From Pricia mediterranea (GTDB lineage: Bacteria > Bacteroidota > Bacteroidia > Flavobacteriales > Flavobacteriaceae), in the NCBI RefSeq assembly GCF_032248455.1, contig NZ_JAVTTP010000001.1:1240001-1304000 (forward strand): DNA of 64,000 nucleotides, in the 5' to 3' direction. The position numbers and the translations under genes are program-made. Shown here piece by piece: positions 31,259 to 62,877 of the stretch. The notes below the pieces were generated by a model. That model had not been told where the DNA came from and searched no databases. It worked only from the letters and a program-made list of their open reading frames with translations. Positions within the stretch are counted from its first letter, which is position 1. Each line of letters opens with the position of its first letter.

Positions 31259-32341
31259 CTATGCATGTATTATTTTTTCCTGATGATTGATCGATTCCTG
31301 GTGGATGGCCTTAAAGAGTTTCAGAATAAATTCTTCACTAAGTCCTTTGGACTCCCCTTCCAAAATCATGGCCCCCAAGATCTCGTTCCACCGGGTCGTT
31401 TGTAAAACAGCGACGTTCCGTTCTTTTTTCAAGGCTCCGATACCGTCGGAAATCTTCATTCGTTTCCCCATGGTTTCGATAATCTGATGGTCGAGCACAT
31501 CGATCTGGGCCCGCAGATTGCTTAATTTGGTATTGTATTCCGCTGCGGGCGAGGTTTCCTTACGGATACGCAAATCTTCCATAATCTGCACCAAACGACT
31601 GGGGGTCACCTGCTGGGCGGCATCGCTCCAGGCGTTATCGGGATCGTGATGGGTTTCGATCATCAGCCCGTCGAAATTCAGATCCAAAGCGGTCTGCGAC
31701 ACGTCGAAAACCATATCGCGCTTTCCGGTGATGTGCGACGGATCGTTGATGATCGGCAGATCGGGGAAGCGGGTCTGTAGGTCGATGGCCAGTTGCCATT
31801 CGGGAATGTTCCGGTATTTGGTCTTTTCATAGGTGGAAAAACCCCTATGGATGACGCCCAGTTTTGCAATGTTTGCCGTATGTAGGCGCTCAACGGCCCC
31901 TAACCATAAGGAAAGATCAGGGTTTACGGGATTTTTGATCAGCACCACCTTGTCCGTTCCTTCCAGGGCGTCGGCGATTTCCTGAACGATAAAGGGACTC
32001 ACCGTTGACCTTGCCCCGATCCATAAGAGGTCGATGTCGTGCTCCAATGCCAGCTCGACATGGGCACGGTTGGCCACCTCGGTCGCGGTCTTCATCCCCG
32101 TTTCCTCTTTGACCCTTTGCAACCACTTCAGGCCGAGCGAACCAACCCCTTCAAAATTCCCGGGACGGGTACGCGGCTTCCAAATGCCTGCACGGTAGTA
32201 GTTGACATCGGTGTCTTTTAGACTTTGGGCTATGCCCATAACTTGTTCTTCGGTCTCCGCACTGCACGGTCCCGCGATTACCAGCGGGTGGTCTAGGTTC
32301 ATGTCGTCTAACCACGACCTCATTTGTTTGTTGTTCTCCAT
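31259..32341 (-). CDS. Bifunctional DAHP synthase / chorismate mutase
   Basis: A 360-residue fusion. Residues about 1-255 form a DAHP synthase of the KDPG-aldolase (I-beta) type: LVIAGPCSAETEEQV, YRAGIWKPRTRPGNFEG, LLWIGARSTVSPF, VLIKNPVNPDLSLW and IINDPSHITGKRD. Residues about 270-360 form an AroQ chorismate mutase (LSNLRAQIDVLDHQIIETMGKRM, IGALKKERNV, ILKLFKAIHQESI). It thus catalyses the first step and the Phe/Tyr branch step. This fusion is usual in Bacteroidota. It lies behind tyrA in the cluster controlled by the pheA-upstream attenuator. Confidence 0.95.
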   Translation of the reverse strand: MENNKQMRSWLDDMNLDHPLVIAGPCSAETEEQVMGIAQSLKDTDVNYYRAGIWKPRTRPGNFEGVGSLGLKWLQRVKEETGMKTATEVANRAHVELALEHDIDLLWIGARSTVSPFIVQEIADALEGTDKVVLIKNPVNPDLSLWLGAVERLHTANIAKLGVIHRGFSTYEKTKYRNIPEWQLAIDLQTRFPDLPIINDPSHITGKRDMVFDVSQTALDLNFDGLMIETHHDPDNAWSDAAQQVTPSRLVQIMEDLRIRKETSPAAEYNTKLSNLRAQIDVLDHQIIETMGKRMKISDGIGALKKERNVAVLQTTRWNEILGAMILEGESKGLSEEFILKLFKAIHQESINHQEKIIHA

Positions 32342-32524: not shown

Positions 32525-33391
32525 TCATTTCCCCATACTGTTCAAAGGTATCCCTTTTAAAATTTCCTTGATCCGGTTAGTGTCGTTCATTTCATGAAAA
32601 ATGCCTTCGTAATCTTCATCTTCAAGCAGTTGTTTGAACTCCTGCAGGTTTTGGATGTACTCGTTCAGCGTATCCAAAACATTATCCCTATTGTGCTTGA
32701 AAATGGGGGTCCACATGGCGGGGGAGCTTTTGGCCAGGCGTACGGTACTTTCGAAACCACTGCCCGCCATGTCAAAGATATCGCGTTCGTTCTTTTCTTT
32801 GTCGATAACGGTCTTCCCCAACATAAACGAGCTGATATGTGACAGATGCGACACATAGGCGATGTGCTTGTCGTGCGCTTCGGGATTCATATAGCGGATG
32901 CGCATGCCCATTTCCTGAAAGATTTCCAACGCCTTTCCCTGTAATTTGAAGGCCGTTCGCTCGATCTCACAGATGATATTGGTCTTGCCCGCATACAAAT
33001 TTTCTATGGCCGCGGACGGTCCTGAAAATTCCGTTCCCGCAATCGGATGCGCCGATAGATAGTTTCTTCGCTTCGGATGGTCGGCAAGCGTTTTACAGAC
33101 CAAGCTTTTGGTCGAGCCGCCATCAAGCACGACACAATCGTCGTTCACGGCATCGAGGACTTTAGGAAGCTCCTGTACCATAGCATCCACGGGCACGGTA
33201 ACGATGACCATATCGGCAATGTCCAATTCGTCATAGCTCGATCTTGCATCGATCAGGCCGAGGGACAAGGCCTCCTCTTCGTGGGATGGATCGATATCTA
33301 TGCCATAGATCTTAGACTCCGGCCGAAGGCGTTTGAGGTCCTTGGCGAAGGAGCCCCCGATCAAACCGATACCGATGATAAAAATGTTCAT
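32525..33391 (-). CDS. tyrA: Prephenate dehydrogenase
   Basis: A 288-residue NAD(P)-dependent dehydrogenase making 4-hydroxyphenylpyruvate. The dinucleotide site is MNIFIIGIGLIGGSFAKDL; further motifs are DGGSTKS, YLSAHPIAGTEFSGP (catalytic His) and HDKHIAYVSHLSHISSFML. No chorismate mutase or ACT domain is attached; mutase activity comes from the next gene. It lies in the order pheA, aminotransferase, tyrA, aroG-CM. Confidence 0.94.
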   Translation of the reverse strand: MNIFIIGIGLIGGSFAKDLKRLRPESKIYGIDIDPSHEEEALSLGLIDARSSYDELDIADMVIVTVPVDAMVQELPKVLDAVNDDCVVLDGGSTKSLVCKTLADHPKRRNYLSAHPIAGTEFSGPSAAIENLYAGKTNIICEIERTAFKLQGKALEIFQEMGMRIRYMNPEAHDKHIAYVSHLSHISSFMLGKTVIDKEKNERDIFDMAGSGFESTVRLAKSSPAMWTPIFKHNRDNVLDTLNEYIQNLQEFKQLLEDEDYEGIFHEMNDTNRIKEILKGIPLNSMGK

Positions 33392-33628: not shown

Positions 33629-34786
33629 CTAAAACCTCCCGATCGCTTCCCGGATATTTTCCTCCGTTACACAAAGGGAAAGCCGAATGTACCCCTCGCC
33701 GTTGCTCCCGAAAATTGTTCCCGGGGCAATAAAAATATCCTTCTCGTATAAAATTTCATCTATAAACGTCTCCGCAGGTTTACTTCCTTCGGGCAATTTG
33801 GCCCAAACGAACATCCCGACGGCTTCTCGATCATACGTACACTGCAACTTGTCGACCAGTTCAAAAATCAGGTTTCTTCTTTCCCTATATATAGTATTCA
33901 ACCCGTCGAACCATTCTTGCAGGCTTTGCAGGGCGGTAATCGCCCCTTTTTGGATGCCATAGAACATTCCCGAATCCATATTGCTCTTTACCTTTAGCAC
34001 GGCCTCTAGATGTTCCGCGCTGCCCAATACCATCCCGACGCGCCATCCGGCCATATTAAAGGTCTTACTGAGGGAATTCAGTTCCAAGGCGACCTCCTTT
34101 GCGCCCTCAACGGACAAAAGGCTGGTCGGCGCCTCGTTCAGCACAAAACTATAGGGATTATCGTTGACCAGCAGAATAGCGTTTTTTCGCGCAAAGGCGA
34201 CCAAACGTGCGAGCTGTTGGGTGTCGGCCGTAGCCCCGGTCGGCATATGCGGATAACCGACCCACATGATTTTTACCTTGGATAGGTCTTCTTGTTGTAG
34301 AACATCCAGATCGGGAAACCATCCATTTTCTTCGGACAGGTCATAATATTTGGGTACCGCATCCACCAATTTGGTGACAGAGGTATAGGTTGGATAGCCC
34401 GGATTGGGAATCAGCACCTCGTCCCCCGGATTTAAAAAGGCCAGGCTGATATGCATGATACCCTCCTTGGAACCCATCAGCGGTAGGATTTCTTTCGCCG
34501 GATCCACCTCGACCCCGAACCTCGTCGCGTAGAAGGTAGAAATAGCTTCCCGCAGCTGGGGAAGACCTTGATAACTTTGATACTGGTGCGCCCCTGCTTC
34601 CAGTACAGCGTTCTGCATGCTCTCTATGATCGGTTTTGAAGGGGCCAGATCGGGACTGCCGATGCCCATATTGATGATCGGACGACCTTCTGCGGCCAGC
34701 CCGCGCACCTCGCGCAATTTCTTTGAGAAATAATATTCCTCGACCGTTTGCAGGCGATCTGCAGTTGTTATTTCTGAAATTGTCAT
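33629..34786 (-). CDS. PLP-dependent aromatic aminotransferase (class I)
   Basis: A 385-residue fold-type I aminotransferase. The PLP lysine is in LNSLSKTFNMAGWRVGMVLG; other conserved parts are NPGYPTY, YPHMPTGAT (Pro-His-Met-Pro instead of the common NPTG), NDNPYSF and YIRLSLCVTEENI (substrate-carboxylate Arg). Its start overlaps the pheA stop by 4 bp, and tyrA follows, so it very likely transaminates phenylpyruvate and 4-hydroxyphenylpyruvate. By sequence alone it could also be a prephenate or other keto-acid aminotransferase. Confidence 0.86.
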   Translation of the reverse strand: MTISEITTADRLQTVEEYYFSKKLREVRGLAAEGRPIINMGIGSPDLAPSKPIIESMQNAVLEAGAHQYQSYQGLPQLREAISTFYATRFGVEVDPAKEILPLMGSKEGIMHISLAFLNPGDEVLIPNPGYPTYTSVTKLVDAVPKYYDLSEENGWFPDLDVLQQEDLSKVKIMWVGYPHMPTGATADTQQLARLVAFARKNAILLVNDNPYSFVLNEAPTSLLSVEGAKEVALELNSLSKTFNMAGWRVGMVLGSAEHLEAVLKVKSNMDSGMFYGIQKGAITALQSLQEWFDGLNTIYRERRNLIFELVDKLQCTYDREAVGMFVWAKLPEGSKPAETFIDEILYEKDIFIAPGTIFGSNGEGYIRLSLCVTEENIREAIGRF

Positions 34787-35610
34787 ATCCTTACATTTTT
34801 ATATTCCCCCAAAACCTTGAAATCTTCTGCCATGATGCCCAAAAGTGATTTTGCCTTGTCAAAATCTTTATAAGTATCAAAGGTCACATCGACGAAAAAA
34901 GCATATTTCCAAGGGGTCTCTATAATCGGCAGCGATTGTATCTTGGTCATGTTCATGTTGCAGTCGCTCATTACATTGAGCACTGTGGCCAGACTGCCGC
35001 GCTTATGGTCGGTGACAAAACGTACAGAAGCTTTATTTATCTCATCTTTGGGAATCAGCTTGTTTTTTGTACTTACAATGATAAAACGTGTCTCATTATT
35101 TTTAATGGTCTGAATTTGCGGTGCTACGATGTCCAAATCGTAGAGACTGGCAGCGACTTCCGGTGCAATGGCCGCAATATGGAACCACGTCTCCTCTTGT
35201 ATGCATTTTGCAGTTTCGGCGGTATCGACGTCCTCGACCATTTTTATATGGGGGTAATCACGGAAAAACTCCTTGCATTGCAACAAGGCCATAGGATGCG
35301 AACGAACCTCTTCGATATCTCCGATATTTTGGCCCTTCAGTACCATCAGGTTGTGGTTGATGTTCAAATAATGTTCCCCGATAATGTGAAGATCGTTGTG
35401 ATAGACCAGGGCATAGTTGGGAATGATGGAGCCTGCAATGGAATTCTCGATAGCCATTACGCCCATAGCTGCGGTTTTGTCCAATAGTCGATCGACTAGA
35501 TCGTCGAAAGACCTACTCTCTACCAAGTCGGTATCGTCGCCGAAATACTCCCGCACCACTTGGTGGTGGTTGGAGCCTTTAATACCCTGTATCGCAATTT
35601 TTTGTTTCAT
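34783..35610 (-). CDS. pheA: Prephenate dehydratase
   Basis: Converts prephenate to phenylpyruvate. I use the ATG at 35610 (275 residues; KIAIQGIKGSNHHQV), since the 13 residues of the longer frame to 35649 are unlike the family. The catalytic part has AIENSIAGSI and the region ETRFIIVST (Thr-Arg motif as NNETRFIIVS). A C-terminal ACT domain begins near KASVRFVTDHKRGSLATVLNVM, with Phe-binding character, so the enzyme is probably inhibited by Phe. It is the first gene after the attenuator at 35943-36067. Confidence 0.94.
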   Translation of the reverse strand: MKQKIAIQGIKGSNHHQVVREYFGDDTDLVESRSFDDLVDRLLDKTAAMGVMAIENSIAGSIIPNYALVYHNDLHIIGEHYLNINHNLMVLKGQNIGDIEEVRSHPMALLQCKEFFRDYPHIKMVEDVDTAETAKCIQEETWFHIAAIAPEVAASLYDLDIVAPQIQTIKNNETRFIIVSTKNKLIPKDEINKASVRFVTDHKRGSLATVLNVMSDCNMNMTKIQSLPIIETPWKYAFFVDVTFDTYKDFDKAKSLLGIMAEDFKVLGEYKNVRI

Positions 35611-35942
35611 AGTTGTTTTTCCCGCCCCTGTCGGGAGATAGTCCTCCATTTTTGCATAATGGCTGTATATTTTTTTGGTGCTCTAACCCTGAAAGCAGGC
35701 GTTGCATGATATTATTCTTTCGAACTGCGCTCTACTCGTACCTTTCGTCACTCTTTTGCCTTCCGCCATCCTTTTTCCTTTTTCTTTACGTCCTTTAGTC
35801 AAACTACATGTTTCCGTTTGTTTCACAGAAACAATCACAGAAGCTTTTTGCTTCCATGATTTAAATCCTGGCCTTGCTTTTCAATCGTTGCGACTTCCAG
35901 GTCCCAGACCTCTCTACCACATAAATTCTTAGAATGTCTTTC

Positions 35943-35969
35943 AAAAAAAAGTCCCGCATTATGCGGGAC
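35943..35969 (-). terminator. Attenuator terminator upstream of pheA
   Basis: On the minus strand GTCCCGCAT (35969-35961) and ATGCGGGAC (35959-35951) form a 9-bp stem, or about 7-8 bp with a realistic loop, followed at once by eight T (35950-35943). This is a textbook intrinsic terminator. It lies 333 bp before the pheA start and directly behind the leader peptide, so it should stop most transcripts unless an alternative fold forms. Confidence 0.9.
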
Positions 35970-35995
35970 CTTGTTTGTCTATATGTTCAAATATA

Positions 35996-36067
35996 TCACA
36001 ACAGTCCCGCTTCTCTTTTAAAAAAGAAGTAAAAAAAGGAACCGCTATAGAAATATTGCTTCGACAT
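35996..36067 (-). CDS. pheL-like: Phe/Tyr-rich leader peptide of the aromatic operon
   Basis: A 23-codon reading frame, ATG at 36067-36065 and TGA at 35998-35996. Residues 5-7 are Tyr-Phe-Tyr and residues 11-16 are Phe-Phe-Tyr-Phe-Phe-Phe: six Phe and three Tyr codons in 23. Directly after it comes the terminator at 35969-35943. Such a peptide is a sensor: ribosomes stall on these codons when charged tRNA-Phe or tRNA-Tyr is scarce. It is too short for routine gene finding. The symbol only marks analogy to proteobacterial pheA leaders; homology is not claimed. Confidence 0.88.
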   Translation of the reverse strand: MSKQYFYSGSFFYFFFKREAGLL

Positions 36068-36197
36068 GGTACACTTAAACTTGCGCTAAAGTAATAATTA
36101 TATTTTAAAAATGGGATTTGAAGGGATTTTTTTTATAAGTGGATGTAAAATAAATTCTGAAATGTTATAACATTGTTCCAACTTTAATTATTCATAA

Positions 36198-36464
36198 ATA
36201 AAAAAAACAAGGCCTTGCTTGGTCATATCCCCCAACGAAGCCAATAATAACCTGAATACGATTTTAAACGCGCCGATTACCTCGGCGATACGGAAGTTTC
36301 CCATGCGAATGGATATCGTATTAAAAAATAAAAGAGGTCAGATCGCGCTCGACCAAATGCGCTGCATCGATAAATCGAGATTATTCGAAAAGATTGATTT
36401 GCTGAACGGAGACCAGATTAAAAAACTTCGTTTACTTTTGAGGGAGTTTTTAATTGATGACTGA
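36198..36464 (+). pseudogene. Truncated MazF/PemK-family toxin gene
   Basis: The plus strand reads IKKTRPCLVISPNEANNN and continues through APITSAIRKFPMR, KNKRGQIALDQMRCIDKSRL to REFLIDD and a stop. This matches the middle and end of MazF/PemK endoribonucleases (KKTRPCVVISP, APIT, QIRTIDKxR). The N-terminal 15-20 residues are missing: an in-frame TAA at 36195-36197 stands just before the homologous part and no good start exists. No antitoxin gene is adjacent. It is most likely a dead relic; translation from the TTG at 36219 cannot be excluded but would lack the first strand. Confidence 0.65.
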
Positions 36465-47225: not shown

Positions 47226-47321
47226 AGGGCAATAGTATTATTAAACCCGTTCGTTTGCACCGGTTTGTTTCAAGTGATCGTTATCAAGTAAGAAAGAAGT
47301 TTAGACGGATTGTCTTTTTGC

Positions 47322-47467
47322 GTTATCTGCCAAAATACTGAAATACCCGAAATTTCGGAACAGTACAAGGTAGAACGTAGCACCTTCTCAGGTCCCGAAA
47401 GATGCGGGATAATCCAAAGGGTTGCTAAGGCTTCACAGGGTCTAGTCCCTCCGCCTTTCTTGATAAC
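47322..47467 (-). ncRNA. SAM-I riboswitch upstream of metH
   Basis: Minus-strand aptamer. The P1 arms are GTTATC (47467-47462) and GATAAC (47327-47322). After the 5' arm comes AAGAAAGGCGGAGGGACT, then ACCCTGTGAAGCCTTAGCAACC, a variable stem (TCCCGCATCTTTCGGGA) and AAGGTGCTACGTTCTAC. These are the conserved blocks of the SAM-I aptamer (S-box). SAM binding should lower expression of metH and metF. The expression platform between 47321 and 47226 shows no obvious terminator, so control may act on translation. Confidence 0.93.
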
Positions 47468-47493
47468 ATCACAGTTTATGAATGAACTAATCG

Positions 47494-57756: not shown

Positions 57757-60700
57757 TCACCCTTTCTCCGCAATCCGCAAAATATCACCAAAAACCCCTC
57801 TTGCCGTTACCGCCGCCCCGGCCCCGGCACCTTGGATGACCAGCGGATGCTCCCCGTAGGATTCCGTATAGATTTCGATAATGGAATCGGAACCTTTTAC
57901 CTGGCCAAGAGCACTCTGTTTGGGCACGGAAATCAGCTCTACGTCCAAAATTCCCTTTTCCTTTTGTAGGTCGCCGTGCAGGTCGCCTACGTAGCGTAAT
58001 ACGTGATCGGGCTGCTGCTCTTTTTTAAGGGTATCGAATTTTTCGTCCAAAATATCGAGCTGATCTAAAAAGTCTTCGACCTTCCCTTTTCTTAATTTCT
58101 CGGGAATCAGGTTCTGGATATCGATATCGGAGAATTCATTGCGCAACCCCAGTTCCCGCGCCAGAATCAACAGCTTGCGGCCTACGTCGTTGCCGGACAG
58201 ATCTTCCCTAGGGTCGGGTTCGGTATAGCCGCTGTTCATCGCATCCTTTAGAATATCCGAAAAGACTTGGTCGGATTCCGAAAAGGTATTGAAAATATAG
58301 CTTAACGAACCTGAAAAAACCCCTTTGATCTGGGTGATGTTCTCGCCAGAAAGGTGTAGTAACTTGATGGTATCTATTAATGGCAAGCCGGCACCTACGT
58401 TCGTTTCGTATAGGTATTGTTTTTGGTTTTTGTCCAGTTCATCACGTAGAGATCGGTAGTAATCGAAATCAAGGGTATTCGCGATTTTATTGGAAGATAC
58501 CAAGTCGAACCCGTTTCTGACGAAGTCCACATAATGTGCCACAAAATCCTCGCTGGCGGTATTATCAACCGCAATCAGATTTTCGAGGTGGTTTTCCTTG
58601 GCGTACAAAATGACGTCCTCGAGCGCGTAAGGTATCCCTTTTTCGTCGAGGGAGTTCTTCCAGTCGTTGGATATCCCATTTTTATCCAAAAGTACCTTGC
58701 GGGAATTGGCGATGGCGAAAATTTTGACATCGATGCCCTTACGTTCTTCGATGGACTTAGCGGATTTTAAAATTTGGTCGATCAGCGTGCCGCCTACGTT
58801 GCCGTGTCCGAACAAGGCCAGGTTCAACTTGTTGCTTATCCCAAAGATTTGGCCGTGCATCACGTTCATCGCTTTGTGGAGGTCCGCTTTTTTCACCACC
58901 AAACTGACGTTCTTTCCGGAGACCGTATTGTTGAACAACAGCGGCACGATCTGATTCTTGATCAGGGCATTATACGGAAGATGGAAGGTACTAAGGTCCT
59001 GCCCGACTACCGAAATGACCGATACTTCCTCAAGTACGGTAATCGTGTTGATGTCCCTATTGACATAATCGCCCTCGAATTCGGCGTCCAAAGCTTTTTT
59101 GGCCCTTAAGGCCTTATCGGAATCCACCACCAGGCCGATTCCCCGCTCCGAAGACCCTTGTGAGATGATACTGACACTTATGTTGTTCCGTTCGAGCGTT
59201 TTAAAAATCCGTGCATCGATACCTACTTTTCCCAGTAGTCCCCGCCCCTCAAGATTGATCAAGGATACGTTTTCGATAACGGAGAGCGATTTAATGCCTT
59301 CTTTTTCAGTCTTCGCACTGATCAAAGTGCCTTCGTTATCATTGTTGAAGGTGTTTAAAATACGCAGCGGGATATTCTTCTCGATAAGCGGAATGATGGT
59401 CTTCGCGTGTAAGATCGTCGCCCCGAAATTGGCCAGCTCGTTGGCTTCCCCATAGGATAGGTTGTCGATACGTCTTGCATCGGCCACAAGATCGGGATTG
59501 GCGGTAAAGATGCCATCGACGTGGGTAAAGTTCTGTAGCTCTTCGGCATTGAGAAAGTTAGCGAACAAAGCCGCGGAATAATTGCTGCCGTTTCTGCCCA
59601 AAGTGGTCGTGTCGCCATTTTCGTCCGAAGCAATAAACCCAGTGATTATGGGTATCGCATCGGGCTCAAGCTGCTCGAATCTTTTGAGTATGCTTTCTTT
59701 GGAGGCTATCTCCATCACCGAGGCATCCCCGAAATTGGAGTCGGTCTTTACCAACTCCCGGGCATCCATAACTTGCGCATTGAGTCCCCTGTCCCGCAAC
59801 GCATGGGCAACCACTTTAGCGGAAATCAGCTCCCCGAAAGAAAGTGCCTGATCTTTAATCTTGGCACTGTAGTCGCCCAGAAGGGCCACTCCCTCCAAGA
59901 GTTTGGTCAGCGCTTCGAACTCGGAGGATAAATCGATATTTTTAAAGTTGAATTTCTGATACTCCGCAAAAGCTTCCAGCTCAAGCTTATACTGCTCTCG
60001 TTTTGCGGCCGTATCCAACATCGCTTCCAGTTGGTCGGTCGCTTTCCCTCTGGCGGACAGGACCACCGCAATAGGCTCCCCGGCCTTTCCCCTGGTCGTT
60101 AAAATTTCCAAAACCCGTTCAATACCTTCGCCGTTGGACAGCGACCTTCCGCCGAACTTCAGGATCTTGACCCGGCCTACCTTTCCGTTGCTATCGAAAA
60201 TGGGTTTTAGCAACTGTTCCATCTGCTCGAATTCGATCAAAAAGGCATCATGGCCGTGCAGGGAGTTGACTTCCCCGTAGGTCACGTTACTGTTCGCCTG
60301 GGCAAGCCGCTTATAGGTGTCCTTATTCTCCTGGGCCGTAAAAAAAAGATCGGAATCGACCCCGATGATATGAATGTTGGTGTCGCTTCGTTGTAAGTTT
60401 CTGAAATTCTCCTGTCCGTCACGGGTTACGTCGATGGTCTTCAGCAATTGGTTCATCAACTTGTAGGCCGACAACTGAAAGCGATCCTGCAGTTTATCGC
60501 CGTGGTGCATCAACCAGCTCTCGACGTTAAAGACCTGCAGCTCTTCGTTGGTACTCCGTTTGAAGCGGTCTTTAAACGACTCGGGTGTTCGGTAGCATAA
60601 CATGGCGTGCATGCGTGCGTCATGGACCGGCTGCTTTGAATTGATCAAGAACTGCTCCTGTATCTGGCAATTGGCAATCAACCAGTCGGTAGATTTCCAA

Positions 60701-61143
60701 TCGGATGCCACGGGGACCAAGTGTTTCGTGATTTTAGGATTGATAGCGGCCATTTCCCAAGCGATGCCCCCACCTAGGGACCCGCCGATAATGGCAAATA
60801 GCCTGTCTATCTTTAGCTGCTGTAAGCCCCATAAAAAGATGCGGGCGATATCACCGGCCACAAAATCCTTATAATTTTCGATAACGAACCCATTGTGGCC
60901 GTTGCCCGGCACATTGAACGAAAGTATCGTATATCTATTGGTATCGATACGTTTGCCCTCCCCGATCAGTGCGGACCACCAACCGCCGTCGCCGGTAACA
61001 TTGGAGTTTCCGGTGAGGGCATGGTTCACGAGTACGATGGGCGCGGAATGCAGCTCGCGCCCGAACAGCTCGTACGAAAGTTCGATATCTTGGTTGACAC
61101 CGCTCAGGGTGGTATAGTTCTTAAGTTTTAAATGATGGAGCAT
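57757..61143 (-). CDS. Fusion: homoserine O-acyltransferase - aspartokinase - homoserine dehydrogenase
   Basis: A 1,128-residue protein with three enzymes. Residues 1-318 are a MetX-type alpha/beta hydrolase: VNHALTGNSN, nucleophile Ser122 in GGSLGGG, Asp265 in GVDSDLFF and His298 in HGHDAF. Residues about 325-770 are aspartokinase with ACT domains (KILKFGGRSLSNGEG, GFIASDENGDTTTLGRNGSNYSAAL by region). Residues about 772-1128 are homoserine dehydrogenase (LALFGHGNVGGTLIDQIL, NVGAGLPLIDTIKLL, GVFSGSLSYIFNTF, GYTEPDPREDLSGNDVGRKLLILAR). It links aspartate to activated homoserine in one chain. It starts 61 bp after the metY stop. Confidence 0.92.
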   Translation of the reverse strand: MLHHLKLKNYTTLSGVNQDIELSYELFGRELHSAPIVLVNHALTGNSNVTGDGGWWSALIGEGKRIDTNRYTILSFNVPGNGHNGFVIENYKDFVAGDIARIFLWGLQQLKIDRLFAIIGGSLGGGIAWEMAAINPKITKHLVPVASDWKSTDWLIANCQIQEQFLINSKQPVHDARMHAMLCYRTPESFKDRFKRSTNEELQVFNVESWLMHHGDKLQDRFQLSAYKLMNQLLKTIDVTRDGQENFRNLQRSDTNIHIIGVDSDLFFTAQENKDTYKRLAQANSNVTYGEVNSLHGHDAFLIEFEQMEQLLKPIFDSNGKVGRVKILKFGGRSLSNGEGIERVLEILTTRGKAGEPIAVVLSARGKATDQLEAMLDTAAKREQYKLELEAFAEYQKFNFKNIDLSSEFEALTKLLEGVALLGDYSAKIKDQALSFGELISAKVVAHALRDRGLNAQVMDARELVKTDSNFGDASVMEIASKESILKRFEQLEPDAIPIITGFIASDENGDTTTLGRNGSNYSAALFANFLNAEELQNFTHVDGIFTANPDLVADARRIDNLSYGEANELANFGATILHAKTIIPLIEKNIPLRILNTFNNDNEGTLISAKTEKEGIKSLSVIENVSLINLEGRGLLGKVGIDARIFKTLERNNISVSIISQGSSERGIGLVVDSDKALRAKKALDAEFEGDYVNRDINTITVLEEVSVISVVGQDLSTFHLPYNALIKNQIVPLLFNNTVSGKNVSLVVKKADLHKAMNVMHGQIFGISNKLNLALFGHGNVGGTLIDQILKSAKSIEERKGIDVKIFAIANSRKVLLDKNGISNDWKNSLDEKGIPYALEDVILYAKENHLENLIAVDNTASEDFVAHYVDFVRNGFDLVSSNKIANTLDFDYYRSLRDELDKNQKQYLYETNVGAGLPLIDTIKLLHLSGENITQIKGVFSGSLSYIFNTFSESDQVFSDILKDAMNSGYTEPDPREDLSGNDVGRKLLILARELGLRNEFSDIDIQNLIPEKLRKGKVEDFLDQLDILDEKFDTLKKEQQPDHVLRYVGDLHGDLQKEKGILDVELISVPKQSALGQVKGSDSIIEIYTESYGEHPLVIQGAGAGAAVTARGVFGDILRIAEKG

Positions 61144-61203: not shown

Positions 61204-62484
61204 CTACGCGTCAATTGTTGCAAACGCATTTTCAAGGTCGGCTTTTAGGTCGTCGATATCTTCAAGCCCGACCGAGAGACGGATCAAATCTTTGGTCACC
61301 CCGGTAGATTCCTGGGCTTCGTCGTCCAATTGCTGATGGGTGGTGCTTGCGGGATGGATTATCAATGACTTGGTATCCCCAATATTGGCCAGCAGCGAAA
61401 AGAGCTTCGTATGGTCCGCTATTTTTTTCGCGGATTCAAAGCCGCCCTTGACCCCAAAGGTAATGAGGCCACTCTGTCCCTTAGGCAAATACTTTTGCCC
61501 CAGATCATAGTATCTACTGGACTTCAACCCTGGATAGTTCACCCAGGTCACCACGTCGCGACCTTGTAGCCATTCGGCCAAGGCCAGGGCGTTTTCGCTG
61601 ATATGTTTCATCCGCACCTCGAGCGTTTCCAGACCTTGAATAATTTGCCAGATATTGAAAGGGCTCGGGGCAGCCCCTAAATCCCGTAATCCTTCGATCC
61701 GGGCCTTTGCGATGAATGCTGCCGGACCCAAGGCCTCGTGATAGACTAACCCGTGATAGCCCGGGGAGGGCTCCGTGAATTCGGGAAAATTGCCGTTGCT
61801 ATAATCGAAGGTACCGGCATCGACGATGGCTCCACCCAGGGCGGTTCCGTTACCGTTGATGTACTTTGTCAAAGCGTGAATGACGATGTTCGCCCCGTGT
61901 TCGATGGGATTGATCAGGGCGGGCGTTGCGACGGTGTTATCCACGATAAACGGCACCTTGGCCTTTTTAGCCACCTCTGAAATCGCCTTGAGGTCCAACA
62001 CATCCAATTTCGGATTGCCGAGGGATTCCACAAAGACCGCCCGGGTATTGTCCTGCAGCGCTTTTTCAAAATTCGCCGGATCGGAAGGGTCGACAAAAGT
62101 GGTTGTAATACCCAGTCTCGGCAGGGTTACCCCGAACAGGTTGTAGGTACCCCCGTACAGGCTGTTACTGGTAACGATATGGTCGCCGGACTTTAACAGG
62201 GTCAAGAAGGTTGTCGATAGCGCGGCCATGCCCGAAGCCGTAGCCACCGAAGCTATACCCCCTTCAAGGGCTGCCATACGCTGTTCGAGCACATCGTTGG
62301 TCGGGTTGTTCAACCGGGTATAGATAAAGCCCGGTTGCGAAAGATTGAAAAGGTTGGCTGCATGGTCCGAATCCTCAAACACGTACGAGGTGTTTTGGTA
62401 CAGCGGCACGGCACGGGTTCCCCCATGGGCCTTTACGTCATGTCCGGCATGTAGGGCGTTGGTAGCAAATTTAGAATCGCTCAT
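61204..62484 (-). CDS. metY: O-acetylhomoserine sulfhydrylase
   Basis: A 426-residue PLP enzyme adding sulfide to O-acetylhomoserine. Motifs: FATNALHAGHDVKAHGGTRAVPLYQNTSYVF (in pieces), YTRLNNPTNDVLEQRMAALEGG, VESLGNPKLDVLDL, FIVDNTVATPALINP, IVIHALTKYINGNGTALGG (PLP lysine in LTKY) and IIHPASTTHQQL. Length of about 425 with this lysine motif is typical of MetY rather than MetB/MetZ. First gene of the unit behind the second SAM riboswitch. Confidence 0.94.
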   Translation of the reverse strand: MSDSKFATNALHAGHDVKAHGGTRAVPLYQNTSYVFEDSDHAANLFNLSQPGFIYTRLNNPTNDVLEQRMAALEGGIASVATASGMAALSTTFLTLLKSGDHIVTSNSLYGGTYNLFGVTLPRLGITTTFVDPSDPANFEKALQDNTRAVFVESLGNPKLDVLDLKAISEVAKKAKVPFIVDNTVATPALINPIEHGANIVIHALTKYINGNGTALGGAIVDAGTFDYSNGNFPEFTEPSPGYHGLVYHEALGPAAFIAKARIEGLRDLGAAPSPFNIWQIIQGLETLEVRMKHISENALALAEWLQGRDVVTWVNYPGLKSSRYYDLGQKYLPKGQSGLITFGVKGGFESAKKIADHTKLFSLLANIGDTKSLIIHPASTTHQQLDDEAQESTGVTKDLIRLSVGLEDIDDLKADLENAFATIDA

Positions 62485-62692
62485 GATTTTTGGTTTTTAT
62501 TGTTAGCGTACTTATTGATAGTGTTTGTTTTAGACCGCTCAAAGGCAATAGCCGTTTCCAATATCCACCGGGTGGTTAGCGGACTGCCATTTCAATCGGG
62601 TCTAAAGCGGGCTCCCGAGGGTTTGTCCCAAGCTGACTCGATAATATCAATAAGTTATGAAGAAAGTAAATTACGGAAGGTAATTCGTTTGT

Positions 62693-62839
62693 GTTATCTG
62701 CCTAGTTGCCGAATCCGAAAATCTTCAAACATCACTAAGTAGAACGTAGCACCTTCTCTATACCCTTCCGAAAGCAATCGGTAGGCAAGAGGGTTGCTAA
62801 GGTTTCATAGGGTCCAATCCCTCCACCTTTCTTGATAAC
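62693..62839 (-). ncRNA. SAM-I riboswitch upstream of metY
   Basis: Minus-strand aptamer with P1 arms GTTATC (62839-62834) and GATAAC (62698-62693). It has AAGAAAGGTGGAGGGATT, ACCCTATGAAACCTTAGCAACC, a variable stem near 62765-62785 and AAGGTGCTACGTTCTAC, the same blocks as the metH copy. It should repress metY, metX-thrA, metZ and possibly the Rrf2 gene when SAM is high. Between the aptamer and metY (209 bp) no clear terminator is seen. Confidence 0.93.
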
Positions 62840-62877
62840 TGATCAATACGTGTTTGAACGTTCGAAAACTCTAAAAA

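Follow-up and report, generated by a model that had tools for sequence, protein, structure and literature searches.

A predicted four-segment transcription attenuator upstream of pheA in Pricia mediterranea and related Flavobacteriaceae

The operon for phenylalanine and tyrosine biosynthesis of the marine flavobacterium Pricia mediterranea, which also includes a common-pathway enzyme, is very probably controlled by a four-segment, ribosome-mediated transcription attenuator located upstream of pheA. The element was analyzed in the window, i.e., the whole 64,000-nt stretch of contig NZ_JAVTTP010000001.1 (positions 1,240,001 to 1,304,000; all coordinates below are those of the window), and in homologous regions of other genomes. 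An initial annotation had read this locus as a Phe/Tyr attenuator, and comparison of sequences supports this reading. The features of trp-type attenuators are found here in the sequence and its folding: an open reading frame (ORF) rich in codons for the end products, a predicted terminator, a mutually exclusive antiterminator, a protector helix, and an appropriate geometry of the stall and stop sites.

Structure of the leader region and the downstream operon

The leader ORF, MSKQYFYSGSFFYFFFKREAGLL, is encoded on the minus strand from ATG at 36067 to TGA at 35996. Its 23 codons include six Phe and three Tyr codons, as had been described initially; the frame is conserved in the family and its codons are constrained in frame. 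The terminator begins 23 nt past the leader stop and reads in full AAGGTCCCGCA-TAA-TGCGGGACTTT, with the arms GTCCCGCA/TGCGGGAC followed by a run of eight T (35943..35950, minus strand) forming the tail of an intrinsic terminator. The 9-bp GC-rich stem reported previously consists of eight Watson-Crick pairs and one G-U pair, or of 11 pairs if the tail-side A-T pairs are counted. Its 5′ arm is segment 3 (35962..35972, minus strand), which contains GTCCCGC at 35969-35963, and its 3′ arm is segment 4 (35948..35958, minus strand). Segment 2 (35989..36010, minus strand) carries GCGGGAC at 36010-36004, a copy of the terminator 3′ arm that can pair with the 5′ arm; this repeat had also been noted, and its pairing covaries in relatives. 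There is a third helix at the locus, between leader codons 4-10 and segment 2 together with the RNA past the stop codon. Its 5′ strand is segment 1 (36038..36058, minus strand), whose core was recovered by RNAalifold and is supported by the helix counts given below, and its partners are most of GCGGGAC and the nucleotides down to 35989. The initial annotation had called the anatomy complete: the leader, terminator, and antiterminator stand, while this protector helix, a 340-nt spacer before pheA, and hints in the literature had been overlooked.

Such an arrangement hardly arises in shuffled sequence. The 127-nt leader RNA folds with a z-score of -5.86 relative to 200 shuffles. In dinucleotide shuffles of the 1,000 nt upstream of pheA, a short ORF (no longer than 30 codons) with at least nine Phe/Tyr appeared in 5 of 2,000 cases, and such an ORF followed by an 8-bp GC-rich terminator in none of the 2,000.

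Four genes follow on the same strand. The prephenate dehydratase gene pheA (34783..35610, minus strand, or possibly starting at an in-frame ATG at 35649) has a best NCBIfam match of 183 bits, under the cut-off of 219. The end of pheA is overlapped by a gene for a class-I-type aminotransferase, presumed aromatic (33629..34786, minus strand) and assigned at the family level, as none of the 25 matches listed exceeds the cut-off of its model. The prephenate dehydrogenase gene tyrA (32525..33391, minus strand) matches NF006307 over the cut-off, and is the only gene of the operon to pass a curated cut-off among the NCBIfam matches listed. The last gene encodes a DAHP synthase with a chorismate mutase domain (31259..32341, minus strand; best match 186 bits, under the cut-off of 279). 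Of 80 related named loci retrieved, 75 exceed 6.6 kb, and all of these show the same gene order, which agrees with the gene assignments made at the outset. Among named relatives, a Pricia MAG is nearest, with a PheA identity of 88%.

Distribution and covariation

The occurrence of the element was assessed by scanning 1,000 nt upstream of pheA for a leader with at least six Phe/Tyr residues making up at least 25% of the peptide, followed by a terminator. The family data set comprised 189 Flavobacteriaceae regions, namely the window, 80 nearest named loci, and 108 regions from further genomes; eight exact duplicates left 181 distinct regions. Besides the named loci, 110 of the 186 family genomes carrying pheA were read, counting the Pricia genome itself: the 30 best and 80 selected manually. 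The duplicate of the window itself (L082) was dropped from this set, and L099 was left out of the scan. A Phe/Tyr leader with a terminator was present in 188 of the 189 regions (180 of 181 distinct), the sole miss being L173, which has no leader; in L099, outside the count, both parts are visible by eye. The opposite strand gave no hits in 189 regions, and five other residue pairs used as controls gave 0 to 13. A stricter pass recovered 179 of 182 distinct regions, missing L099, L173, and L180.

Outside the family, all 39 listed pheA regions of the class Bacteroidia were inspected, including two with uncertain starts because the PheA match begins only from residue 28 (L226) and 48 (L228), and one of only 539 nt (L229). 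By the scan criteria, the element was found in 22 of these loci and was absent from 17; among the rows listed, some of the 22 have no good antiterminator match. Controls on these loci plus one family member yielded 1 of 40 for the opposite strand and 0 to 4 of 40 for other residue pairs. Three non-family leaders (L205, L215, and L219) have 27-29 codons with 11-14 Phe/Tyr and share a similar tail, VEREFVCI or VKREFVYV, possibly representing a separate subtype.

Two alignments, with members chosen by length and by eye, were used for analysis of compensatory changes: A1 of 70 leaders and A2 of 23 Flavobacterium-type leaders. Of the 123 dereplicated leaders, 30, mostly divergent, were left out. 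Without prompting, RNAalifold returned the terminator and the core of helix 1:2. In A1, 98.9% of the cells of helix 3:4 are paired and five of nine pairs are doubly changed, a count equalled in 0 of 500 shuffles; the values for helix 2:3 are 91.0% and four of seven pairs, equalled in 5 of 500. Helix 1:2 has 87.9% of cells paired and 8 of 17 pairs doubly changed, with 39 double-change cells versus 20.8 in shuffled alignments. Two of its five shuffle measures are not decisive, as the number of doubly changed pairs was equalled in 31 and that of pair types in 109 of 500 shuffles. Judged by doubly changed pairs, helix 3:4 is thus the strongest and helix 1:2 the weakest, since shuffles equal them in 0 and 31 of 500 cases. 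The covariation score was equalled in 0 of 500 shuffles for each of the three helices, and controls with slid strands reached paired fractions of at most 44.3% (1:2), 43.5% (2:3), and 58.3% (3:4).

The 23 leaders of A2 have another 1:2 pairing, UUAUACAUA with UAUGUAUAA, in which 87.4% of cells are paired and three pairs are doubly changed; shifting the strands by two still gives 62.6% and 67.0% there because the letters are repetitive. Helix 2:3 of A2 is 87.0% paired and too invariant for covariation. Among 178 anchored leaders (L174 excluded), 57 have a match between segments 2 and 3 of at least 6.5 out of 7 positions, relative to a shuffled mean of 31 and a maximum of 42. The comparison with relatives that the initial annotation had suggested thus found both the aromatic codons and the competing pairings conserved, with compensatory changes.

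Proposed mechanism and alternative explanations

In the proposed mechanism, transcription probably begins some 10-15 nt upstream of the leader, and a ribosome would follow RNA polymerase through the leader. If charged tRNA-Phe or tRNA-Tyr were scarce, the ribosome would stall on the aromatic run (codons 5-16), where it would cover segment 1 and stop short of segment 2. Segment 2 could then pair with segment 3 while segment 4 is yet to be transcribed, so that no terminator would form and pheA, the aminotransferase gene, tyrA, and the DAHP synthase/chorismate mutase gene would be transcribed. With plentiful aromatic amino acids, the ribosome would reach the stop codon and cover segment 2, and helix 3:4 would terminate transcription. 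In the absence of a ribosome, segments 1 and 2 would pair and again leave 3:4 free to form.

The spacing of the leader is consistent with this scheme. Of 174 leaders, 164 have segment 2 at a distance of 12-13 nt from the last Phe/Tyr codon, measured from its first base, and 155 have a stop codon starting 12 or 17 nt downstream of the segment 2 start (L106, L164, L168, and L175 were left out of these counts). A ribosome with a codon in its A site reaches about 12-13 nt downstream; therefore, the last stall site would leave segment 2 just free, and a ribosome at the stop would cover it. The window RNA was also folded with the ribosome footprint blocked. With a ribosome stalled at codon 16, the last Phe codon, the full RNA formed the antiterminator with a probability of 0.94 and the terminator with 0.07. 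With a ribosome at the stop codon, the terminator probability was about 1, and without a ribosome it was also about 1, with helix 1:2 at 0.85. Placing the ribosome on the first Tyr codon favored the antiterminator (0.98) in the nascent RNA; once segment 4 was present, its probability was 0.23 and that of the terminator 0.83. For a last-codon stall over 174 full-length leaders, the averages were 0.45 for the antiterminator and 0.53 for the terminator. The order of folding and synthesis must matter, since these full-length folds, for the first Tyr codon and on average, are less clean. By this modelling, a stall at the first aromatic codon would be effective only if folding is under kinetic control. 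Similarly, before segment 4 is made and without a ribosome, the equilibrium fold of the window RNA favors 2:3 (0.90) over 1:2 (0.09), so protection by helix 1:2 depends on this helix forming first. The ribosome positions proposed initially as the switch mostly hold in this folding: they do so for a stall at the last Phe codon and for the stop codon, the exception being a stall at the first Tyr codon in full-length RNA.

The aromatic block is inherently T-rich owing to its Phe and Tyr codons, and one could imagine a constitutive terminator next to an accidental U-rich frame, conserved only since U-rich RNA binds a regulator. This explanation is hardly credible given how the leader behaves as a coding sequence. 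In the aromatic part of the 70 leaders of A1, 70% of single-nucleotide codon differences are synonymous or Phe-Tyr exchanges in frame versus 22% and 33% in the shifted frames, figures that are descriptive because pairs of related sequences are not independent. Third codon positions vary most (2,433 of 4,312 pairwise differences in codons 11-16), and Phe-Tyr swaps are tolerated. On average, the 179 leaders have 9.3 Phe plus Tyr in frame, compared with 3.1 and 4.2 when read out of frame. All 70 aligned leaders have an aromatic residue at codon 7, which precedes the Phe/Tyr run: Trp in 45, Tyr in 16, and Phe in 9, encoded as TGG, TAT/TAC, or TTT/TTC. The number of leaders with an unpaired middle base in this codon, nine, equals the number with Phe there, and pairing alone is thus not a sufficient explanation for an aromatic codon 7. 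One Trp codon is present in 113 of the 179 leaders. Hence, the "Phe/Tyr" signal may be one of all aromatic amino acids, and it is possible, judging from codon content, that the leaders sense Trp besides Phe and Tyr.

Two further explanations concern the link between the leader and pheA. The constraint on the ORF at the codon level would equally be expected of a functional micropeptide, with the hairpin being the terminator of its own gene and pheA being transcribed from a promoter in the spacer, for which the long spacer of the window (35611..35942, minus strand) leaves room. Measured from the terminator stem to where the PheA match begins, the spacer is 340 nt in the window and at most 114 nt (median 38) in the other 178 regions, so that the window spacer is the longest, three times the longest of the others. 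It is very improbable that the leader is such a separate gene: segment 2, inside the ORF, changes together with segment 3, outside it; the last Phe/Tyr codon keeps its 12-13 nt distance to segment 2 in 164 of 174 leaders; TAnnTTTG is absent from the window spacer; and the spacers of relatives, down to 11 nt from stem to PheA match, have no room for a separate pheA promoter. Somewhat less remote, yet still unlikely, is that the element is real in the family and has decayed in the Pricia genome, pheA having escaped its control through the poor match of the -33 box and the insertion of a long stretch. Upstream of the leader, a putative -7 promoter element, TACTTTAG (36086..36093, minus strand), lies 18 nt before the ATG. 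In 166 of 179 regions, the element TAnnTT(T/A)G occurs upstream of the leader at a distance of up to 60 nt, with the same 18-nt gap to the ATG in 74 of the 166. The -33 box of the window reads CCCA versus TTTG in Pricia relatives, and a MazF/PemK-like ORF (36219-36464, plus strand), located upstream of this promoter and divergent from it, matches only profile positions 25-109 of 109, its N-terminal part apparently missing, which may be a sign of local rearrangement. Against decay, the leader, all four segments, the -7 box, and the 18-nt spacing are intact; the poor -33 box is not unique, since 28 of the 166 regions have 3-4 mismatches there; the leader model, in which the window itself was included, scores the window at 114.7 bits; and no ORF of at least 80 amino acids lies between the terminator and pheA on the pheA strand. 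The insert at 35611-35942 is a single copy in the genome. The odd -33 box, the long spacer, and the MazF-like fragment may thus reflect a rearrangement around an attenuator that is still complete.

Relation to known attenuators and significance

A search of Rfam at the gathering threshold gave no match at the pheA attenuator locus. In a relaxed search, the top match was RF01859 Phe_leader (full model, 32.8 bits, E 0.0014), followed by 18 lower-scoring matches, all under their own cut-offs. Phe_leader, which we take to be the enterobacterial attenuator of pheA and pheST, likewise combines a Phe-rich leader peptide with competing antiterminator and terminator before pheA. However, the score is lower than the gathering score of 55, the leader at the pheA locus mixes Tyr (and in many relatives also Trp) with Phe, and it stands before a whole Phe, Tyr, and DAHP synthase operon. 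Another peptide-leader element of the same phylum is RF01692 Bacteroid-trp (Bacteroidete tryptophan peptide leader), a cis-regulatory motif of Bacteroidetes, as far as the consulted text describes it (Weinberg 2010, PMC2864571). It is centered on Trp rather than on Phe and Tyr, and was absent from the matches of the pheA locus up to an E-value of 10.

The initial annotation knew of no described case in Flavobacteria. In fact, the accessible text of a 2021 study of Flavobacterium psychrophilum reports a structured pheA 5′ element without an Rfam match, present in other genera of Flavobacteriaceae, and strong clues for leader-peptide attenuation upstream of amino acid biosynthesis operons (PMC9723704). 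As far as this text goes, the element belongs to the same gene and family as the attenuator described here, while the pheA leader, segments, covariation, and range are not spelled out in its accessible main text. The claim of novelty was thus overstated, given this element and the catalogued RF01692. No explicit pheA attenuator in Bacteroidetes was found beyond these hints in the mostly open-access literature searched; a comparative paper by Lopatovskaya (2010) may contain one. The mechanism is classic ribosome-mediated (trp-type) attenuation and is not new. Relative to the earlier text, the present analysis adds the anatomy of the four segments and their covariation, the ruler-like spacing, how widely the element occurs in the family and class, and the position occupied by Trp; it also provides a defined leader family that scores below every Rfam cut-off at the pheA locus.

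Two other biosynthetic loci of the genome have similar leaders. Upstream of trpE, the leader MIKNTVHTWWWNNFRYAS with three Trp codons (WWW) is followed by a terminator (L250:1551-1608; terminator from 1638) and scores 50.3 bits against RF01692 (cut-off 49). The frame MINSSAHHRFYTIAQAR upstream of hisG (L251 minus strand, offsets 1563-1617 of the reverse complement) also precedes a terminator and, with two His codons only, is a weak candidate for a His attenuator. Considering these leaders, such attenuation is probably used more than once in the genome. Upstream of thrA and ilvD, in stretches of 4 and 5.5 kb, the scan listed no gene-strand terminator scoring >19. A genome search with the leader model R1 at E up to 10 yielded nine further matches (best 29.8 bits, E 0.06); no second attenuator copy was seen, as the most aromatic short frame at seven of the nine match loci had 5 Phe/Tyr of 34. 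NCBIfam gave no leader-peptide family at E up to 0.01. Elsewhere in the window, SAM riboswitches over the Rfam cut-off were identified at 62691-62841 and 47320-47469 (both on the minus strand). The former precedes two frames on its own strand, 61204-62484 and 57757-61143. The latter frame (minus strand, 1,128 amino acids) joins an alpha/beta-hydrolase domain, presumably homoserine O-acetyltransferase, to aspartokinase-homoserine dehydrogenase domains.

For the aromatic operon, the likely signal is the charging of tRNA-Phe and tRNA-Tyr, and perhaps of tRNA-Trp. Translation in Bacteroidota starts largely without Shine-Dalgarno sites, and to our knowledge transcription-translation coupling has been little studied in this phylum. 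An attenuator that is retained, with compensatory changes, in nearly all pheA regions scanned in the Flavobacteriaceae provides indirect evidence of such coupling in Bacteroidota, and the leader could be a ready reporter for it. A more far-reaching interpretation is tentative, and we consider it somewhat doubtful as a whole: one leader would read all three aromatic amino acids and govern an operon with the first enzyme of the shikimate pathway and both branches, the switch would be old and spread through the class Bacteroidia, and the 12-13 nt ruler would imply that ribosomes track RNA polymerase closely in Bacteroidota.
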